Origin: Bacteroidota bacterium
GTDB taxonomy: Bacteria > Bacteroidota > Ignavibacteria > Ignavibacteriales > Ignavibacteriaceae
Length of the DNA stretch: 32,043 nucleotides
Assembly (NCBI GenBank): GCA_021824565.1
Contig: JAKAKL010000113.1
Span: 1 to 32,043, forward strand
Direction: 5' to 3'
Of the stretch, positions 9,401 through 31,186 are shown piece by piece; positions within the stretch are counted from its first letter, which is position 1, and each line of letters starts with the position of its first letter. A program made the position numbers and the translations under genes. Under the pieces are notes generated by a model, which made no database searches, was not told the origin of the DNA, and was given only the letters and a program-made list of their open reading frames with translations.

Positions 9401-10009
9401 ATTAATCTTCTTGCTTATTCGGAATATGAAGAAGAGAGAAGCAGGTTTGAGTTTTTGAACAAGCAGAGAAATGATTTAATTGAATCTGAAAAAGATATTG
9501 TTAAGACGATAGAGGAGATTAATGTAAATGCTCAGACTCTTTTCATGGATACGTTTGAAAAGATCAGAACGAATTTCATAAATATTTTCAGAGGATTGTT
9601 CAACCCGGGCGATGAAGCCGATCTTCGTCTTGAAGAGAACGCCGATCCTCTCGAGGGTAAAATAGAAATTATTGCTAAGCCGAAGGGAAAGCGTCCGACA
9701 TCTATTGAACTGCTTTCAGGTGGTGAAAAAACTTTAACGGCGATAGCGTTACTGTTTGCGATTTATTTAGTAAAGCCAAGCCCGTTCTGTATACTTGATG
9801 AAATAGATGCTCCGCTTGACGATGCAAACATCGACAGGTTCACAAAAATAATTCATGACTTCAGCAAGGATACTCAGTTTATCGTGGTAACGCATAATAA
9901 ACGCACGATGGAAGCTGCAAGCACGCTGTATGGAGTAACGATGCAGGAAGAAGGAATTTCAAAATTAGTAAGTGTTAGATTTAATGAGGACTTGAATTTT
10001 GTTTCTTAA
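6419..10009 (+). CDS. smc: Chromosome segregation ATPase SMC
   Basis: Core subunit of the SMC-ScpAB condensin that organises and segregates the chromosome. The 1196-residue length is typical. Walker A is GPNGCGKT at 31-38, followed by two long coiled-coil arms rich in E, K and L. The hinge lies between about 500 and 670. The ABC signature LSGGEKTL is near 1098-1105 and Walker B FCILDEIDAP is at 1123-1132, followed by the D-loop. The start is a TTG, giving MYLSKLEILGFKSFA, which is the expected SMC N-terminus; AGGATA lies just upstream. It lies 6 nt after the GH2-like gene and overlaps the next gene by 11 nt, so all three are probably co-transcribed. scpA and scpB are not in the window. Confidence 0.98.
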   Translation: MYLSKLEILGFKSFAQKTVVNFNEGVTSIVGPNGCGKTNIVDAIRWCLGEQRSGTLRSDKMENVIFNGTSNKKPMGMAEVSLSIENNKGILPTEYSAVTITRRIFRSGESEYLLNKNICRLKDITNLFMDTGIGANAYSVIELKMVETILNNKTDERRVMFEEAAGVNKYKLRRRLALKKLDEVKADLTRVNDIVSEVEKKVNSLERQAKRADKYNKVSSTLRELEIELAERELAFYNQQKKEAREIKEQNFQAKINLESELAKLDDEIKVIKQQLSEIEYQLKIKRSELNAETEKIYNVQNNISVSVERKNSLEKNIERFKQELEELSRQLAATEKIISDGALSLKDFEDKIESKEAERYSVKEKLNRLKEELDEKRNFLKTQADILLDKFKEITGKENELSNIEKSLQSKNSSISKLNDKIQSLTGNIAKTVGYLEELSQEKKETEDKLAEAEEIYLQKQREKETLEKELNSLRAKELEIKSAINSIKDKINFIQNLIDTLEGVSKGAKALIANGDWARGEKVLLAHTGNSPEEYRFAIEASLKNNLNNILIESLEDLKSGIEYLKNNEIGKATFSIVNVFDGSKSLLEKISESISRRKAKKLSKENGFKGWAKDFIQADAKWKFYFDKILSKTAVVDTLDTAFSLSSKFSDFNFAALNGDYLDRTGIIEAGSAPRLDDSLFGRKQLLEKLKDEYPLREEELNILRQKIQSTEGKISEIDLKVLSERGRLLVNDLANVEKQIAQFEFEKQKANDEIEKTRHEIQDLVSESNKLDNEYNELQNALSNQIEEKKKADDNQHLLEEDFKKFELEYNAVVSEQNKLNLELERLLGEKKNSENAIHRANESIENIKKSVSKREYDITSSGEEAEALVINISDKRSELGKLELGKHALIEEEKKIDAEYKAVQEQITKIENQQRSLRKERDNVSETVHSSEMKLNELGMKISALQENMQENYSLTIELKEFQDNDTFDFKQRSDDVHALKQQIKNLGPINLLAYSEYEEERSRFEFLNKQRNDLIESEKDIVKTIEEINVNAQTLFMDTFEKIRTNFINIFRGLFNPGDEADLRLEENADPLEGKIEIIAKPKGKRPTSIELLSGGEKTLTAIALLFAIYLVKPSPFCILDEIDAPLDDANIDRFTKIIHDFSKDTQFIVVTHNKRTMEAASTLYGVTMQEEGISKLVSVRFNEDLNFVS

Positions 10010-11993
10010 AGACGCCCGTAAATATTTAAACAATGGGCTTAAGAAACAATTGATACTTTTATTTTTATTACAGTTTATTTGTTCTTCACAACTTGATTTT
10101 GCTCAGTGGGTAAGTAATCCCTCGGTGAATAACGAATTAGCAACCGAGACAGTTGACCCGGTAGATATTTCAGCCGTTGACGATAATAACGGCGGAGCTT
10201 TTGTTTTTTGGCAGGATAATAAATACCGTTTTCAGAATGAAATTTATTTTATACACGTTGACGGAAGCGGTAGAATAAGCTTCAAAGCAGACGGAAAAAA
10301 AATAACGGCGCTGTCAGGTCCCGAAGATAATCCTATTTGCGCATCAATATTTTCAAACAGCGCAGTAGTAGTATGGAAAGATTTTACAAGATCGAAATCC
10401 GGGATATTAATGGCTCAGCGAGTGAACTATAACGGCTCTCTTTTATGGACTGATGAAGGCAAAGTTGTAGAGTCTTCAAGTGATGAAGTATATGATTATT
10501 CTGTACGCACGGATAATTCCGGGAATACGTTTATAGCATACGTTGATAAGGAGCCGGAGATTACGGGAAATTATAAAGTTGTATTGAAAAAAATTTCTCC
10601 TGCCGGAGAAGAAGAGTTTGATAAAGATGAAGTGTCTCTTAATAAATCGAGAATCAAAAAAAGCATGACTGAAGTAATTCCTGACGATGAAGGAGGCGCA
10701 TATTTATTTTGGCTCGAAGTTGTTGACGAAAAAGTAATCCTATTTGGTCAGCATGTTAATGCAGAAGGAAAAGAAAATTGGGGAAGGAAACCGATAGAGA
10801 TATCGAATAGAATTCATAATGTGCTTAACTTTACTGTTGCAAAAACCGGCTGGGGCGATTTATATGTTGCGTGGCAGATACAAAGTTCAGACAGAGTGAT
10901 TTACCATCAGTTAATAAATGAAAAAGGTAAAGTACTCTGGTATCCGGGAGGAAGACTTGCGGCAAATCTAAAAGGCAACGACGTTAATCCGCAGGCTGTA
11001 TATACTGATTCGGCAATTGTGTTAAGCTGGACGAATGATTATAAAAGACAAAAAGAAATTGTTGTGCAGAAATTTGATAGGCGCGGCAGAATAATGTGGA
11101 ATAGAGGAGGCGTTAAAGCAGTAGCGGTTAAAAGTCAGCAATTCGGTCAGCATATAATAAGCGACGGAGCAGGCGGCGTAATACTTGCGTGGGTTGACAG
11201 CAGAACTGATTCAACATACGCAGATATTTATGCGCAGCGTATTGACAAAAATGGAAATCTAATCTGGAATCCGTCCGGGTTAGAAGCTGCAGTAAATTAT
11301 AATACGCCTAAAAGTTATTTGAGTCTATTGTCAAGCGACGGCGGTGCAATTATAATTTTCAAAAATCGTAGAAATGGATTCAATAAGATTTATGCACAGA
11401 AAATATTTAGTTCCGGAAGTTTAATCTCTCAAATGTCAAGGCTGTCGGCACAGGTTGAAAATGATTCTGTAGAAATTTCATGGAGCGTATCGAATGAAAG
11501 AAGCGCTGATGTGTATGATATTCAAAGAGCTGTAGAATCGGACACATCGGGTATATACTGGAAGACGGTTTATACTTTTAGATCGTCAGTCGACACAAGC
11601 ATTAAGAACTATAGTTATATGGATCAGCCGGATACTTCGGGAACGCTGTATTATCGTGTTGAACAAACAGACGCAGCCGGAGATATTCAACCCTCCGATA
11701 TTGCCCGTGTAAATTATTTTGGAGAGAATTCCGATATAATGGTAATGCAGAATAATCCGAATCCATTTTCTGATTCTACCGACATAAGTTTTTATTTGCC
11801 TTCTGCCGATAGAGTCACAATTGAGTTTTACGACAGCCATGTAAATATGATTAGTCAAATTGATGATAAGCGATACCCGTCGGGGGAAAATCATATAATG
11901 TTTTCAGCTCAAGGATTAAAACCTGGAATTTATTTTTATCGCTTCAAATGCGAAGACTATGTTGAAGTAAAAAAAATGGTAATTACTAATTAG
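9999..11993 (+). CDS. Secreted repeat protein with T9SS sorting domain
   Basis: The 664-residue protein starts at a TTG inside the end of smc, with GAGGA about 10 nt upstream. A basic stretch and a hydrophobic segment (LILLFLLQFICSS) form a signal peptide ending near DFAQ. Residues about 45-450 contain about eight repeats of roughly 48 residues built on W-x-D, then IYxQxID, then NGxLxW (for example ILAWVDSRTDS and IYAQRIDKNGNLIW), suggesting a beta-propeller. A fibronectin-like region follows. The last 85 residues are a T9SS type-A tail (NNPNPFSDSTD near 586, then GIYFYRF and KKMVITN). No enzyme family was recognised. Co-translation with smc is odd for an exported protein. Confidence 0.85.
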   Translation: MFLKDARKYLNNGLKKQLILLFLLQFICSSQLDFAQWVSNPSVNNELATETVDPVDISAVDDNNGGAFVFWQDNKYRFQNEIYFIHVDGSGRISFKADGKKITALSGPEDNPICASIFSNSAVVVWKDFTRSKSGILMAQRVNYNGSLLWTDEGKVVESSSDEVYDYSVRTDNSGNTFIAYVDKEPEITGNYKVVLKKISPAGEEEFDKDEVSLNKSRIKKSMTEVIPDDEGGAYLFWLEVVDEKVILFGQHVNAEGKENWGRKPIEISNRIHNVLNFTVAKTGWGDLYVAWQIQSSDRVIYHQLINEKGKVLWYPGGRLAANLKGNDVNPQAVYTDSAIVLSWTNDYKRQKEIVVQKFDRRGRIMWNRGGVKAVAVKSQQFGQHIISDGAGGVILAWVDSRTDSTYADIYAQRIDKNGNLIWNPSGLEAAVNYNTPKSYLSLLSSDGGAIIIFKNRRNGFNKIYAQKIFSSGSLISQMSRLSAQVENDSVEISWSVSNERSADVYDIQRAVESDTSGIYWKTVYTFRSSVDTSIKNYSYMDQPDTSGTLYYRVEQTDAAGDIQPSDIARVNYFGENSDIMVMQNNPNPFSDSTDISFYLPSADRVTIEFYDSHVNMISQIDDKRYPSGENHIMFSAQGLKPGIYFYRFKCEDYVEVKKMVITN

Positions 11994-25359: not shown

Positions 25360-26502
25360 TTAATTAAGTGTTGAAACATATTCTCTTGTTTGACGGTCGC
25401 AGTCGAATATAGTTTCAATGTTTGGGGATTTATGATTTTCTATTTTATCCAAAGCTTTGTTTATATAAACAGGTATTGATGTGAACTTAATTTTTCTGCT
25501 TAAAAACTTTTCAACAGCGACTTCATTTGCAGCATTCAAAATACACGGCGCTGTTCCGCCTTCCTCGAGAACTTTGTATGCAAGACCAAGGCATTCAAAT
25601 TTTTCGAGATCAGGCTCGAAAAAAGAAAAGCTGCCGATCTTTGGAAGATCAGTTCTTTCAAAATTATTTTGAAGACGTTCGGGATAAGTTAATGCATATT
25701 GAATCGGCAGCTTCATATCTGGCAATCCAAGCTGCGCTTTAATTGAGCCGTCAATAAACTGCACCATCGAATGTATAATCGACTGCGGGTGTATTACCAC
25801 ATCAATTTTATTTTTCCTAATCCCAAAAAGCCACCGAGCTTCTATTACTTCGAGTCCCTTGTTCATCAAAGTTGCAGAGTCAATCGTAATTTTATTTCCC
25901 ATCTTCCAGTTTGGATGATTCAGCGCTTCTTCAACAGTTACATCTTCAAAATATTTTTTCTCTTTTTTATGAAAAGGTCCTCCGGAAGCTGTTATAATTA
26001 ATTTCTCAATTGATTCCGTACTTTCGCCTTCAAGGCATTGATATATTGCGCTGTGTTCGGAATCTATCGGGATTAATTTTGAGCTAAAAACATTACAGAG
26101 ATTTGTTACAAGCTCGCCTGCAACAACAAGAGTTTCTTTATTTGCAAGTGCGATTATTTTGCCGCGCTTAATTGCTTCGAGCGCCGGAGCAAGCCCGTAA
26201 AATCCAACCATCGCCCCGACAAAAATATCATAATCCAAACCTGCCGCAGCGTCTATTAAGCTTGAAGCTCCGGTAAGAACTACACATTTATTTCCAACTT
26301 TATCTCTTAGCTTTATGCCTGCCGCTTCGTCTTTTACCACAACATATTTCGGATGAAATTCTTCAATTTGTTTTTCCAGCAAATCAATTCGAGTGTTTAC
26401 GGTAAGAGCTGCAACTTCAAATCTGTCAGGGAAATTTCTAATTACATTTAATGTATTTACGCCAATGGATCCGCTTGATCCTAATATTAAAATTTTTTTC
26501 AT
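25360..26502 (-). CDS. dxr: 1-deoxy-D-xylulose 5-phosphate reductoisomerase
   Basis: Converts DXP to MEP with NADPH, the committed step of the MEP isoprenoid pathway. The 380-residue protein begins with the NADPH loop KKILILGSSGSIGVNTLNVI. It then shows ALANKETLVVAGELV, the metal and substrate block IPIDSEHSAIYQCLEG, ITASGGPFH, HPNWKMGNKITIDSATLMNKGLEVIEA and HPQSIIHSMVQFIDGS. Length and start agree with the family. It is the first gene of the dxr-rseP operon, and is divergent from the heme-porin gene. Confidence 0.98.
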   Translation of the reverse strand: MKKILILGSSGSIGVNTLNVIRNFPDRFEVAALTVNTRIDLLEKQIEEFHPKYVVVKDEAAGIKLRDKVGNKCVVLTGASSLIDAAAGLDYDIFVGAMVGFYGLAPALEAIKRGKIIALANKETLVVAGELVTNLCNVFSSKLIPIDSEHSAIYQCLEGESTESIEKLIITASGGPFHKKEKKYFEDVTVEEALNHPNWKMGNKITIDSATLMNKGLEVIEARWLFGIRKNKIDVVIHPQSIIHSMVQFIDGSIKAQLGLPDMKLPIQYALTYPERLQNNFERTDLPKIGSFSFFEPDLEKFECLGLAYKVLEEGGTAPCILNAANEVAVEKFLSRKIKFTSIPVYINKALDKIENHKSPNIETIFDCDRQTREYVSTLN

Positions 26503-26683: not shown

Positions 26684-27838
26684 ATGAGAAAAATAATGAG
26701 AAATTCAAAACTCTGGTTAGTTATTTCAATTCTTTTTTTAGCGGCGAATCAAAATTTTGCACTTCCGCGGTTTGCGTTAAGAATGGGCGCACAATGTGCA
26801 GACTGCCATGTTGATCCAGACGGCGGCGGCATGCGTACTCACGGCGGCTGGCATTACGGTCTAAGGGTTCTTCCTCTTGTTTCGCCGACTGAAAGAGACA
26901 AAGATTTAACTATGGGAGACGATATCGGAAAGAACATTCGCATCGGCTTTGATTACCGTACTCAATACATTTATTCACAGGAGCTTGGGAAGACTGCATT
27001 CCAGAAAATGCAAGGCTCTTTTTATTTGAGTACGAAAATTCTTGATAAGATAGACGTTTACTCGAATTATGATTTCGTAAATTCAACCTGGGTTGGATTT
27101 GCCGCAGCCCATATTCTTCCGAATGACAGCTACATAAAAGCCGGCGCCTTTGTGCCGGACTACGGCGTTCTTCTTGATGATCATACTGCTTATACACGCG
27201 GCGGCGACCTCGGCTATTTGTTTGCAACTAACCAGCGCCAGGGATTAATTTTTGATCCAAGGTACAGCGTAACCGGCGTGGAAGTCGGCTACAACATTTC
27301 TGATTTCGGAGTCTTTACCGCAAGCGTTGGCAGTCCGGTGTCGCTTAATTTTCAAAGCGATCCTGCTTACACTGCTTCAATCAGATTTAACCCGGTAATA
27401 GCAAACAAGCTTGCGTTAATGTTTGGAGGATCGTTTACAAACTTCCAGGGCCCGTTAATTTACACACAAGTTCCTTCCGAGCATAAAGTAAATATGTACG
27501 GCGGATTTTTAGGGTTTGGTATTGACGACTTTACCCTTATCGGCGAATATGATATTGCTAACGATTATATTTTGACAGGCACGAAATCAAGCGCGCAAAT
27601 GCTTGAGGCTTCCTATGTACTTACAAAAGGTCTGGAAGCGGTAGCGAGGTATGATAGGTTTGTCCCGAACACGAGCGTATCAAATAACAATGTTTCGAGA
27701 TTAGTTTTAGGATTTAGTTTTTATCCTTACAGCTTTGTTGAAATAATTCCTCAATACAGATTCCAGTTCCAGCAGTCGCCGGGGCAGCCTGCTCCAAAGC
27801 AGGATTCCGCTCTTCTGCAATTCCATTTTTATTATTAA
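26684..27838 (+). CDS. Exported mono-heme motif protein with predicted outer-membrane beta-barrel
   Basis: The 384-residue protein has a signal peptide (LWLVISILFLAANQNFA, cut near residue 26). A single c-type heme site CADCH follows at 38-42, with nearby His53 and His57 that could supply the distal ligand (DPDGGGMRTHGGWHYG). The remaining 320 residues alternate polar and aromatic strands typical of porins (GFDYRTQYIYSQ, GSFYLSTKILDKIDVYSNYDF, SRLVLGFSFYPYSFVEIIPQYRF) and end in an aromatic residue (FHFYY), the usual barrel-assembly signal. Heme attached to a barrel suggests electron transfer at the outer membrane, as in porin-cytochrome systems, but this is inference. An ATG at 26696 is an alternative start. 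Monocistronic, with its own promoter and terminator. Confidence 0.75.
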   Translation: MRKIMRNSKLWLVISILFLAANQNFALPRFALRMGAQCADCHVDPDGGGMRTHGGWHYGLRVLPLVSPTERDKDLTMGDDIGKNIRIGFDYRTQYIYSQELGKTAFQKMQGSFYLSTKILDKIDVYSNYDFVNSTWVGFAAAHILPNDSYIKAGAFVPDYGVLLDDHTAYTRGGDLGYLFATNQRQGLIFDPRYSVTGVEVGYNISDFGVFTASVGSPVSLNFQSDPAYTASIRFNPVIANKLALMFGGSFTNFQGPLIYTQVPSEHKVNMYGGFLGFGIDDFTLIGEYDIANDYILTGTKSSAQMLEASYVLTKGLEAVARYDRFVPNTSVSNNNVSRLVLGFSFYPYSFVEIIPQYRFQFQQSPGQPAPKQDSALLQFHFYY

Positions 27839-27852
27839 GATTATTTAAAAGA

Positions 27853-27875
27853 AAGAGCCGCATTGTGCGGCTCTT
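27853..27875 (+). terminator. Terminator after the heme-porin gene
   Basis: Perfect 10-bp stem AAGAGCCGCA / TGCGGCTCTT with a 3-nt loop, 14 nt after the stop codon. The tail is T-rich (ATTGTATATATTTCTTTT) rather than a pure T-run. Confidence 0.75.
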
Positions 27876-27941
27876 ATTGTATATATTTCTTTTAGCCGTG
27901 TTACGCTAACATTAATTCTTTGCTCCAATTTTATTTTCTTC

Positions 27942-27972
27942 TTGACAGTGGCAAACGATTTCCCTACTTTAG
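27942..27972 (+). promoter_or_regulatory. Promoter of the tandem lipoprotein region
   Basis: TTG (27942-27944), 20-nt spacer, TACTTTAG (27965-27972), the same octamer as the plsY promoter. It also reads as TTGACA-N17-TACTTT in sigma-70 terms. It lies upstream of two small ORFs and the first lipoprotein gene. Confidence 0.55.
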
Positions 27973-28011
27973 TTCAGTATTATTTATACAAGAATATTTT
28001 AGGGAGCGTTT

Positions 28012-28128
28012 ATGTATTACGTTAAGAATATTTTTGGTCATTTATTTTTTAATTCAATCACCCCCCCCCATTCTATAATTGTTATAAATCCTGTTTTAAT
28101 CCGGAAGGTTAAAGTAACGCTTAAATAA
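28012..28128 (+). CDS. Small ORF, 38 residues, unknown
   Basis: It begins MYYVKNIFGHLFF and ends VKVTLK. AGGGAG is placed 7 nt before the ATG and the TTG-N20-TACTTTAG promoter lies 40 nt upstream, which is why it is listed. It contains a run of nine C (28061-28069). No family is recognised. It may be a leader peptide or chance; the promoter and ribosome site are the only support. Confidence 0.3.
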   Translation: MYYVKNIFGHLFFNSITPPHSIIVINPVLIRKVKVTLK

Positions 28129-28146
28129 GTATCAGGGAGAATAACA

Positions 28147-28317
28147 ATGCTTTTGAAAGGGTTCGTTTTTTGTTTAATAATTTTGCTACCTTGTCAATTC
28201 GTTTATAGGCTTAATGACAAGAGAAGCAAATCTATTTATCGCACAGGTCTGATTCATTCCCGTAACAAGGTGGAAAACTTTTTATTAACTCTCCTTATTC
28301 ATACGGTACTAACATGA
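28147..28317 (+). CDS. Small ORF, 56 residues, coupled to the lipoprotein gene
   Basis: Starts MLLKGFVFCLIILLPCQF, a hydrophobic N-terminus resembling a signal or membrane segment, and continues with a basic, polar part. AGGGAG precedes its ATG by 8 nt. Its TGA overlaps the ATG of the next gene (ATGA at 28314-28317), and that gene has no visible ribosome site of its own. Either it is a real small protein that couples translation to the lipoprotein, or an upstream leader. No family recognised. Confidence 0.4.
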   Translation: MLLKGFVFCLIILLPCQFVYRLNDKRSKSIYRTGLIHSRNKVENFLLTLLIHTVLT

Positions 28318-29687
28318 AACTTATTACTCTTAGTAATCTATCATTGAATAAATTCTTAAACTTGATCTTAAACTTACTCTTAATCTTAAACCTCTTTTTC
28401 CTTTTATCTTTTGAAAGCTGTAAAAGCCCAACTGCGCCCAAGAGCTACAGGCTTAGTCTTTCTGTCTCTGATGTTAGCTGCACAGAAGCGTGGATTAAAC
28501 TTACCGTTAACAACGCTCCTTTGCCGGCTAATGTTGTAATAAAGAGAAACGGAAATAATTTATTCAGCTTTAATCTTACAAGCAGCGATACTACTGTTTA
28601 CGACAGTACTCTTTTACCAAACCAAACCTATACATATCAGGCAGCATACGGGAAAGCCTATCCCACAGAAACAAGCCAAACAGTTACTGCTAAAACAATG
28701 GATACTACAAGCAATAATTTTACCTGGCAGACAATTGTACTTGGTGATGGATTAAATAATTACTTTAACGATGTTGCGGTTGTTAGCGATACTTCTATCT
28801 GGGTTGTAGGTAAATTTAATCTTCAGGATTCAATCGGCATGTTCAATGTAATGCATTGGGACGGAATTAAATGGAATCCTTTTCATCTTACAGCTATTGA
28901 TTCAAGTGGTAATCCATTAACGCCTGAGCTAAGAGGAATATTATATTTTTCTGAAAATGATATATGGTTTGCCGGCGGCAGTATTTTTCACTGGGATGGA
29001 AAGAAATTTAGTTTTTCACTTGAAAGATATACCTATTTCAACGGAGGAAGTGAAACTGTAGATAGGTTATGGGGCAATTCTGATCAAAATATTTATGGTG
29101 TAGGTTCTTTAGGAACAATTGTTAAAAATGACGGGAAAAGCTGGCAACAGATACAGAGCGGTACTACATTAAACATTCAAGATATTTGGGGCGCTAATGA
29201 TCCAATAACCGGCAAAGAGCAAATTCTTTGTATTGCCTCTAATGTACTTTCGTTAAACCAAAATGTGTTAATTCAAATTAAAGATGGTTCTGCTCATCTT
29301 ATCTCTAACCAGGGTCTGCCTCCTTATTATTTTAGTTCGGTCTGGTTTAAGAATTCTAATCTTGCCTATGTAACTGGTAACGGTACTTATAAAAGTTATA
29401 ATTTTTTTAATAATACAGGATGGATAACAATACTGCCTCTTATTACAACATATTATTCATACTCTATAAGAGGCAACGACGTAAACGATATATTTTTTTG
29501 TGGGTCATATGGCGACTTAGCGCATTATAACGGGGTGCATTGGTATGACTATTTAGGAAAGGAGCTGCAAACATTTAATGGTAACTTATACGGATTTAGC
29601 GTTAAGGGTAACACTGTCTGTGCAGTCGGAGCGGTAGCAGGCAATAAAGTTCAGGCAGTGATAATACTTGGAAGGAGAAATAATTAA
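28314..29687 (+). CDS. Lipoprotein with fibronectin-like N-domain and beta-propeller-like body (paralog 1)
   Basis: The 457-residue protein starts with an unusually long low-complexity hydrophobic segment (LNLILNLLLILNLFFLL) and a likely lipidated Cys in SFESCKSP; the box is imperfect but fits Bacteroidota lipoproteins. Residues about 37-136 form a beta-rich, fibronectin type III-like module (KSYRLSLSVSD, then GKAYPTETSQTVTAKT). The rest carries repeats with W-V-G/F-G-G and WDG-x-KW patterns (DTSIWVVGKFN, NDIWFAGGSIFHWDGKKF, NDIFFCGSYGDLAHYNGVHW), suggesting a propeller. The module is about 90% identical in DNA to the gene at 29852. Surface exposure is likely; function unknown. Confidence 0.8.
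   Translation: MKLITLSNLSLNKFLNLILNLLLILNLFFLLSFESCKSPTAPKSYRLSLSVSDVSCTEAWIKLTVNNAPLPANVVIKRNGNNLFSFNLTSSDTTVYDSTLLPNQTYTYQAAYGKAYPTETSQTVTAKTMDTTSNNFTWQTIVLGDGLNNYFNDVAVVSDTSIWVVGKFNLQDSIGMFNVMHWDGIKWNPFHLTAIDSSGNPLTPELRGILYFSENDIWFAGGSIFHWDGKKFSFSLERYTYFNGGSETVDRLWGNSDQNIYGVGSLGTIVKNDGKSWQQIQSGTTLNIQDIWGANDPITGKEQILCIASNVLSLNQNVLIQIKDGSAHLISNQGLPPYYFSSVWFKNSNLAYVTGNGTYKSYNFFNNTGWITILPLITTYYSYSIRGNDVNDIFFCGSYGDLAHYNGVHWYDYLGKELQTFNGNLYGFSVKGNTVCAVGAVAGNKVQAVIILGRRNN
28416..28722 (+). repeat. 307-bp module, copy 1 (lipoprotein N-domain)
   Basis: Matches 29906-30212 without gaps (offset 1490) and with about 30 mismatches by eye, about 90% identity. It begins just before the lipobox Cys codon and ends after TMDTTSNNF. 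Most differences are silent. Similarity falls away outside these limits. Confidence 0.9.
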
Positions 29688-29851
29688 ATAATGCTGCAAT
29701 GTCATATAAGAGAACCTACAACAAATTAAAAACCGGCATCAAAAGCTGGCGGGCTTAAGATACCGGCATTGTGCAAATATCAGAACGTTCCTACGGAGGC
29801 TGAATAAAAAGATTCTGCTTAGTTTCTAAGAAATTATTGAAAGTGTTTTAG

Positions 29852-31186
29852 ATGAAGAACTTTTATATTTTATTTTTAGTAGTAATAATAACTTTCTTAC
29901 AGTTTAGCTGCAAAAGCCCTACTGCACCTAAGAGCTACAGGCTTAGCCTTTCTGTCTCAGATATTAGCTGCACCGAAGCGTGGATTAAACTTACCGTTAA
30001 CAACGCTCCTCTTCCCACTAACGTTGTAATTAAGAGAAACGGAAACAGTATATTTAGTTTTAATCTTACAAGCAGCGATACTACTGTTTATGATAGTACT
30101 CTTTTTCCAAACCAAACCTATATATACCAAGCAACATACGGAAAAGCTTATCCCACAGAAACAAGCCAAACAGTTACTGCTAAAACAATGGATACTACAA
30201 GTAATAATTTTTCTTTCCAAACATTTACTTTTGGCGCCTCAAATGCCGGAAGCAGCTACTTAAATGATATAGCAATAATAAATGATAATGACATCTGGGC
30301 TGTAGGCGCTGTGTATCTTGATAGTGCCGATGGAGCGCCAGACCCTAATGCTTATAATGCAGTTCAATGGGATGGTAGTAAATGGAATTTAAAGAGGATT
30401 TTTTATTATGGAAATTGCAGTGCAGTAAAATATCCTCCATTAAGATCAATATATATTTTTTCAGATAATAGTATTGTTGTAACAAATGGCGGAAGTGTCG
30501 GCTGGGTAAATGACGATTCGGTAAAGCTAGACTGCCGAGTAAATCCTTTGCTAACCGGAGCTATAAATAAAATATGGGGGACATCAAGTAATGATTTTTA
30601 TGTAGTAGGTAATGGTGGCAGTATTGCACATTACCAAAACGGCTTGTGGCAGCAGATAGAGAGCGGAACAAATCTGCAATTTCTCGATATATATGGAGTA
30701 GCTGATCCTGCTACTGGCAAGCAGCAAATTCTTGCTGTCTGTTCGCAAAATTATCCTCCAGGCAACGGTGTATTTAGTATTCAAGGAAATACTGCAACGG
30801 AGATTTCATCTAATTTCAATTCTCCTGGTTATCCTGTTCTTCCCGAATTATTCAGCGTATGGTTTGTACCTAACACACGTTATTATATTGCAGGAGACGG
30901 CATATTTGAAAAGCATTCTCTTTCAGATAGTCAATGGAATAATGGACCACATGATATTACAAGGTATGGAACAGCGAGTATAAGAGGCACCGGGCTTAAC
31001 GATATATTTGTTGCCGGGTCTTTTGGTGATTTTCTTCATTTCAACGGAGTAAGGTGGCAAAGCTTCACAGATAAAACAAGCCTTCCTAACGGCAGTTATT
31101 CGAGGGTGGCAATAAAAGGAAATTTAATTATCGCTGTTGGGGTTAATGATGCCCGTGCAGTAATTACAATGATAAAAAGGCAATAA
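29852..31186 (+). CDS. Lipoprotein with fibronectin-like N-domain and beta-propeller-like body (paralog 2)
   Basis: The 444-residue protein has a classical lipoprotein signal (MKNFYILFLVVIITFLQFSC, Cys20). Next is the same fibronectin-like module as the gene at 28314, about 90% identical in DNA. The body has matching repeats: NDIWAVGAVYL, WDGSKWN, SSNDFYVVGNGGSIAHY, DIYGVADPATGKQQILAVC, LNDIFVAGSFGDFLHFNGVRW. The bodies of the two paralogs align in order but have diverged much more than the N-domain. No enzyme motif is seen. No promoter of the local type and no clear ribosome site are visible in the 164-nt gap before it, so it is probably on the transcript of paralog 1. Confidence 0.8.
   Translation: MKNFYILFLVVIITFLQFSCKSPTAPKSYRLSLSVSDISCTEAWIKLTVNNAPLPTNVVIKRNGNSIFSFNLTSSDTTVYDSTLFPNQTYIYQATYGKAYPTETSQTVTAKTMDTTSNNFSFQTFTFGASNAGSSYLNDIAIINDNDIWAVGAVYLDSADGAPDPNAYNAVQWDGSKWNLKRIFYYGNCSAVKYPPLRSIYIFSDNSIVVTNGGSVGWVNDDSVKLDCRVNPLLTGAINKIWGTSSNDFYVVGNGGSIAHYQNGLWQQIESGTNLQFLDIYGVADPATGKQQILAVCSQNYPPGNGVFSIQGNTATEISSNFNSPGYPVLPELFSVWFVPNTRYYIAGDGIFEKHSLSDSQWNNGPHDITRYGTASIRGTGLNDIFVAGSFGDFLHFNGVRWQSFTDKTSLPNGSYSRVAIKGNLIIAVGVNDARAVITMIKRQ
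29906..30212 (+). repeat. 307-bp module, copy 2 (lipoprotein N-domain)
   Basis: Second copy of the module at 28416-28722. Both copies keep the same phase relative to the lipobox Cys, so the unit is a protein domain: lipidation site plus fibronectin-like fold. Confidence 0.9.

Follow-up and report, generated by a model that had tools for sequence, protein, structure and literature searches.

Several families of bacterial surface proteins are known as mosaics that are shaped by gene conversion, among them vlhA of Mycoplasma, Opa of Neisseria, TprK of Treponema and Msp2 of Anaplasma. The family that we describe here is like them in having many paralogues per genome, an exchange of segments, and a combination of shared and variable parts, but it differs from them in its propeller fold, and our comparison is made with one genome per species. 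A second relevant system is that of the polymorphic toxins, whose C-terminal domains are described as exchangeable in the abstract of PMC3482391: the likeness lies in a variable back part that is swapped by recombination, while the difference is that our two genes have no identified toxin domain or immunity gene, and that their back part is a propeller, itself a mosaic. Among the matches listed in our literature search, which covered titles and the starts of abstracts, none deals with the present family or with gene conversion among its members.

The window that we have analysed is a whole stretch of 32,043 nucleotides from a genome of the Ignavibacteriaceae, referred to as G000, and the two genes of interest, W1 and W2, adjoin each other on its forward strand. 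Both share the same plan: a signal peptide, a predicted fibronectin type III (FN3)-like module and a predicted propeller. The features to which the text refers are the following:

28061..28069, + strand: C9 homopolymer upstream of W1, its end lying 244 bp from the start of the gene (homopolymer scan)
28314..29687, + strand: W1, 457 aa, with signal peptide, FN3-like module and propeller (open reading frame; family profile)
28314..28418, + strand: signal peptide of W1, up to the residue before Cys36 (by eye)
28416..28721, + strand: homogenised tract of W1 (ungapped-segment comparison)
28701..29141, + strand: linker and front propeller half of W1 (alignment and segments)
29142..29684, + strand: back propeller half of W1 (segment comparison)
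29852..31186, + strand: W2, 444 aa, plan as in W1 (open reading frame; family profile)
29852..29908, + strand: signal peptide of W2 (by eye)
29906..30211, + strand: homogenised tract of W2 (ungapped-segment comparison)
30191..30646, + strand: linker and front propeller half of W2 (segment comparison)
30647..31183, + strand: back propeller half of W2 (segment comparison)

The best ungapped segment between W1 and W2, in fixed register, spans 306 bp with 277 of 306 positions matching (90.5%), in close agreement with the preliminary description, which gave a gapless stretch of 307 bp and about 90% from the lipobox to the end of the fibronectin-like module. The tract starts one codon ahead of the conserved cysteine and ends inside the codons of DTTSNNF; when the match/mismatch vector was shuffled 5000 times, its score was never reached. 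Outside the tract, the two genes are 50% identical in DNA, and the identity falls off on either side of it in a sliding window of 30 codons: the signal peptides share 39% DNA identity (19 aligned codons) and the propellers 51% (318 codons), so that these parts are indeed far less alike, as had been claimed.

A tract of this kind could in principle be left by purifying selection alone, with the module kept alike and the propellers diverging without any recombination; the low pN of the W1–W2 module (0.036) and the strong conservation of the motifs DVSCTEAW and DTTS across 38 modules are what such an explanation expects. The synonymous divergence of the module, however, is low as well, with a pS of 0.32 (20 of 62 sites) versus 0.69 in the propeller (140 of 203 sites; Fisher p 5e-7, from rounded counts), whereas simple purifying selection, as the preliminary description put it, would have meant equal synonymous divergence in module and body. 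In other pairs, the module reaches pS values of 0.5–0.9 (0.88 between W1 and its paralogue C81, 0.59 between W1 and G9a, a gene of genome G009), hence its synonymous sites are free to diverge; the module is, moreover, absent from six of the 12 family genes of G000. On the synonymous counts, we reject purifying selection as the sole cause and regard it as very improbable.

The 12 family genes of G000, located on eight contigs, have been recovered by a search with W2; a profile search further detects five N-terminal fragments of them, as well as five weak matches at other places, and a DNA search for module copies gives three matches of 77–90% over 296–308 bp (one of which is W1) and two short pieces. 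All 12 full genes are open frames, each with its own start, and all six modules are located inside such genes, with neither an expression site nor a silent module copy found in G000. In the six genes without a module, CKSPTAPK-like residues run almost directly into DTTS. Because half of the copies lack it, the module is not, in this genome, the constant anchor that had been proposed; the accompanying view of diverged propellers holds in so far as the bodies of W1 and W2 differ, but the propellers are themselves mosaics with exchanged halves. Two short frames with similar ends, of 127 and 123 aa, occur ahead of family genes (L016 2891-3274 before C17, and L014 5006-5377 before C20c).

The comparison of the G000 copies with each other reveals a patchwork: four of them (C20a, C20c, C43 and C126) have the upstream DNA and the signal peptide in common (69–80% over 172–289 bp), C17 and C20b have the module and the propeller start in common (82%, 489 bp), and C20a and C20b are 85% alike over 200 bp directly past modules that differ (46% in DNA). 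The signal-peptide DNA of W1 is 86% identical to that of the paralogue C114 over 118 bp, while the signal peptide of W2, together with about 28 bp of leader, shares 78% DNA identity over 116 columns with another paralogue, C11a. The nearest relative of the W2 module is that of W1 (93% aa). The front half of the W2 propeller is nearest to C126 (78% aa), followed by G2a of genome G002 (77%), both module-less; the next nearest front halves, from genes of G031 and G047 (57–59%), both occur with a module, so that a gain of the module by W2 and a loss by C126 and G2a are both possible. The back half of W2 is only 48% alike to C126 and 46% to G2a in amino acids, though C126 and G2a are 87% alike there, and its best match among 78 other proteins is a G034 gene (54%). 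Judged from these alignments, W2 appears to be a four-part mosaic. The back half of W1 has its nearest relative, among the 78 others, in the G009 gene (55% aa over 130 codons), the 3' end of which is unlike the rest of the family.

For the W1/W2 pair taken alone, a single partial duplication is possible, by which the module was duplicated once into an adjoining propeller gene, with no ongoing exchange in the family: the two genes are adjacent, and the front half of W2 is closest to the module-less C126 and G2a. This explanation leaves aside that the signal peptide and the back half of W2 have still other nearest relatives, and that all three segments have been exchanged in other genomes, in some cases with pS values of 0.00–0.02; overall, we consider it unlikely.

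The conflict between module and propeller is also found in trees, which were built from 17 module-bearing proteins, separately for the module and the propeller data, and compared by AU tests. In the propeller tree, W1 is joined with the G009 gene (support 100/99), and the propeller data reject a clade of W1 and W2 (p 0.0017), while the module data reject the grouping of W1 with G9a (p 1e-4). The module tree, being short, has little resolution; it contains a long-branch group next to W1 and W2 and does not place the two in one clade. A tree constrained to unite them is worse by 4.7 log units (p 0.22), which neither supports nor rejects their union. Two genes of G006, G6c and G6d, have modules that are 97% identical in protein, and their grouping is rejected by the propeller data (p 2e-7); with a third gene, G6e, the modules are 83–97% alike in amino acids, the module clade of the three has a support of only 82/63, and the corresponding propeller clade is rejected (p 3e-4).

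Within the taxonomic family, the profile has matches in 68 of 80 genomes, representing 27 of 29 genera, and the weak ones among these matches may be other propellers; from these profile-matched genomes, the sequences of seven have been fetched. Our comparison set consists of 79 proteins from 16 genomes, 62 of them with the module; one of the searches gave 35 matches, of which 22 entered the set and 13 (pieces, duplicates and distant propellers) were dropped. The 51 related loci found in named records include 31 with titles of the Ignavibacteria, Ignavibacterium or Melioribacter type and nine of Bacteroidetes, the remainder belonging to Calditrichia, Neomarinimicrobiota and others. A first scan of named genomes, conducted with W2 only, gave 98 pattern matches without a true relative and was discarded.

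The contrast that is seen between W1 and W2 recurs within other genomes. Nine genomes with at least three module-bearing copies give 166 within-genome pairs (an identical G061 pair being kept), of which 22 combine a module pS below 0.45 with a propeller pS above 0.6, while the reverse combination occurs in none of the 166. Twelve of the 22 pairs come from G031; G043 and G047 contribute none, because propeller halves are also shared there. In G000 itself, a contrast of this strength is shown by only one of the 15 module pairs, and the median pS is 0.70 for module and propeller alike.

When recently shared segments are defined by a pS below 0.45 and an amino-acid identity above 0.7, with the one identical G061 pair excluded, sharing within genomes (nine genomes for modules, 13 for propellers) is found for the module in 40 of 165 pairs, from all nine genomes, for the front half in 12 of 244 pairs, from four genomes, and for the back half in five of 244 pairs, from five genomes; the pairs are not independent, and the thresholds were set after the data had been seen. 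Between genomes, the corresponding counts are 2/1725 for the module, and 3/2836 for each of the two propeller halves. For 55 module-bearing genes, the nearest relative among genes with a module is located in the same genome in 44 cases for the module, 28 for the front half and 18 for the back half. With segments that are closer to paralogues of the same genome than to relatives elsewhere, and that conflict with each other, the family has the features of a mosaic driven by gene conversion.

Recent exchanges are found in genomes that are assembled in one contig. In G034, the gene at L078:2525-3832 has a front half that corresponds to the gene at L079:2512 (pS 0.02) and a back half that corresponds to the gene at L079:685 (pS 0.00, 540 nt without a difference); the switch occurs between the equivalents of W1 residues 269 and 285, where all are alike, and the gene is a chimera that was recently formed from two paralogues. 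The shared units of G034 extend through the intergenic DNA into the module of the next gene. In a tandem triplet of G043, the module is shared between genes 1 and 3 (pS 0.01), the front half between genes 2 and 3 (0.07), and the back half between genes 1 and 2 (0.02).

These genomes also bear on the question of whether the modules are alike only because a short-read assembly has merged paralogues, which is a serious concern in draft genomes. Several family genes are located at contig ends, and the same 106-bp piece of the module terminates three G006 contigs, as merging would predict; but the modules of W1 and W2 differ at 29 of 306 positions within a single contig, and segments are also shared in the single-contig genomes G031, G034, G042, G043 and G047. 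The chimeras in such genomes argue against assembly artefacts, to which we give next to no weight, less than to any other alternative. G006 also has short module frames, two of three being cut by contig ends; one frame (L047 1410-1829), which is composed of a signal peptide and a truncated module and overlaps a family gene without a module at its start, is possibly an intermediate of module gain or loss. A module in an open frame of just 237 aa (G031:C1:3253385-3253699) may belong to a truncated family gene.

The ends of the shared tracts are located near conserved motifs more often than in the chimera null: 28% of 53 5' ends (null, 14%) and 45% of 58 3' ends (null, 17%) fall within six residues of five landmarks, which were picked after the ends had been seen, and the pairs are not independent. 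The clustering occurs mainly at the cysteine, the sole landmark above the null for 5' ends, and at the DTTSxNFTWQ linker, while the single landmarks WDGxxW (9% versus 4%) and WQxIxSGTT (10% versus 5%) are little above it.

Taken together, both the W1/W2 mosaic and the wider family are best explained, with a probability of roughly 85%, by an exchange of segments between paralogues within one genome, through homologous recombination or gene conversion; gene conversion or domain shuffling had been suggested from the pair itself, and the synonymous contrast, the conflict between module and propeller, and the recurrence elsewhere speak for it. The predicted plan of the family begins with a hydrophobic stretch and a conserved cysteine, continues in many copies with a single FN3-like module, and ends in a seven-bladed propeller; gene conversion or unequal crossing-over would copy segments from gene to gene within a genome. 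Homologous recombination would likely take place at conserved motifs, i.e. the cysteine region, the DTTSxNFTWQ linker, WDGxxW and WQxIxSGTT..DIWG, presumably with RecA-type recombination as the agent. For W1 and W2, the module of one gene would have been copied onto the other, in either direction, and would have been either grafted ahead of a module-less propeller or put in the place of an older module.

The identity of the domains is based on predicted structures. The module alone gives a model with a pLDDT of 86.5 and seven strands. Its highest-ranking Foldseek matches include FN3 chains, the top one being 2w1n, a construct of cohesin plus FN3 (E 5e-4); chitinase A accounts for 13 of the 50 rows, and just one row has an E of 0.001 or below. 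We describe the module as a predicted FN3-like, seven-stranded sandwich. It resembles the fibronectin type III domain in this model, in its Foldseek matches and in weak profile matches to fibronectin (best E 0.003), while it has a consensus of its own, DVSCTEAW and DTLLYxDSLLPNQTY, and no match to the Pfam fn3 model, which is found neither at the cut-off nor up to E 1 for W1 or W2, nor among the 22 Pfam families listed for 32 family members.

The remainder of both proteins is predicted to be a seven-bladed propeller. The best model of W2 (pLDDT 70, pTM 0.68) has 28 strands of at least three residues from residue 120 onwards; it is based on a two-row alignment, and the remaining four models have a mean pLDDT of only 43–48. 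From about residue 110, its best Foldseek match is YCF48 (5ojp, E 1.3e-10, TM by query 0.51), and its best VIA-align match is the G-beta chain 9jco_B (Z 30.0, rmsd 3.0, 287 aligned residues). We take these YCF48- and WD40-type matches to be seven-bladed propellers, one designed chain being so named in the VIA-align rows; the likeness is that of the predicted fold of W2, while its sequence identity is 6–15% in the listed rows, and a common fold shows no function. A sequence-profile search of the PDB up to E 1 gave a ribosomal protein (E 0.19) as the sole match. At the cut-off, Pfam has no model for W1 and W2, and NCBIfam none for five members (three weak matches); the 22 Pfam families matched by the 32 members are scattered, the best being Kelch in one member (E 1.8e-5), and models of defence systems do not match W1 or W2.

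The conserved cysteine, present in at least 90% of the alignment rows, follows a hydrophobic stretch that is recognised by eye. The lipobox is loose (QFSC and FESC): judged by the lipobox consensus, the serine before the cysteine fits, while the residue at position -3 (Q or F) is non-canonical. W1, W2 and the family are putative lipoproteins, probably lipid-anchored; they may be located at the outer membrane or the surface, where the FN3-like module might act as a spacer and the propellers as heads that bind varied ligands. Elsewhere in the window, the proteins encoded at 380-2809 and 9999-11993 end in a sorting domain of the Por secretion system, the former also having BNR/sortilin-type repeats.

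The two genes that precede W1 (25360-26502 and 26684-27838) are neighbours in 11 stretches from 10 relatives of the genus, none of which has a family gene directly after them; in three of the 11 stretches, the part covered on the relevant side is shorter than 1.6 kb, and two further genomes from the genus are not included. Since the conserved neighbours occur there without a following family gene, the placement of W1 and W2 appears to be specific to this lineage. In the G002 genome, a pair of family genes begins about 5 kb off the conserved neighbours; the two encode identical proteins, and each is followed by a similar gene of 225 aa. The region (L178 912-5300) appears as a tandem duplication of the family gene with its 225-aa neighbour, either recent or a doubling by the assembly. 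The protein of 26684-27838 carries CADCH, a CxxCH motif, close to its N-terminus, and Pfam gives no match for it up to E 1; its identity to the matches in 11 further genomes from the genus is 72–82%, with matches in 12 of 13, its own included. Flanking repeats were considered as gene carriers and dismissed: 31187-31408 matches nothing else in the genome, and the matches of 27839-28313 are limited to two short stretches of 31 and 46 bp on a single contig.

The C9 homopolymer ahead of W1 is possibly a slipped-strand switch, a reading that was formed post hoc. On the gene strand and within 400 bp upstream, tracts of C8 or longer precede 5 of 118 family genes and 0 of 195 control genes, and tracts of C7 or longer precede 6 and 2, respectively; G7 or longer occurs before none of the 118 family genes and before one control. 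The whole genome has four tracts of C9 or longer, and as only two of 16 such tracts in six genomes precede family genes, a phase switch common to the family was rejected.

A wider reading, which we put forward tentatively and hold to be less likely than its opposite, is that the family is a running combinatorial repertoire, in which frequent recombination inside the genome keeps building new seven-bladed propellers out of exchangeable halves, with an FN3-like module in common ahead of them, as a system of surface variation comparable to the antigenic variation of pathogens. If true, this would be surface variation in environmental bacteria, for example against phages or for the specificity towards ligands. 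Concerted evolution that lasts for hundreds of millions of years has been called very rare, in the abstract of PMC6053082; here, the sharing proceeds segment by segment, and the chimeras are recent enough for the synonymous sites of half a propeller to be identical. The family is thereby a natural experiment on the tolerance of propellers to the exchange of their halves. For genes of this type, it is also a warning not to rely on ortholog calls or on short-read assemblies, and it points to a variable repertoire of the cell envelope that bears no Pfam or NCBIfam name at the cut-off in the members tested.
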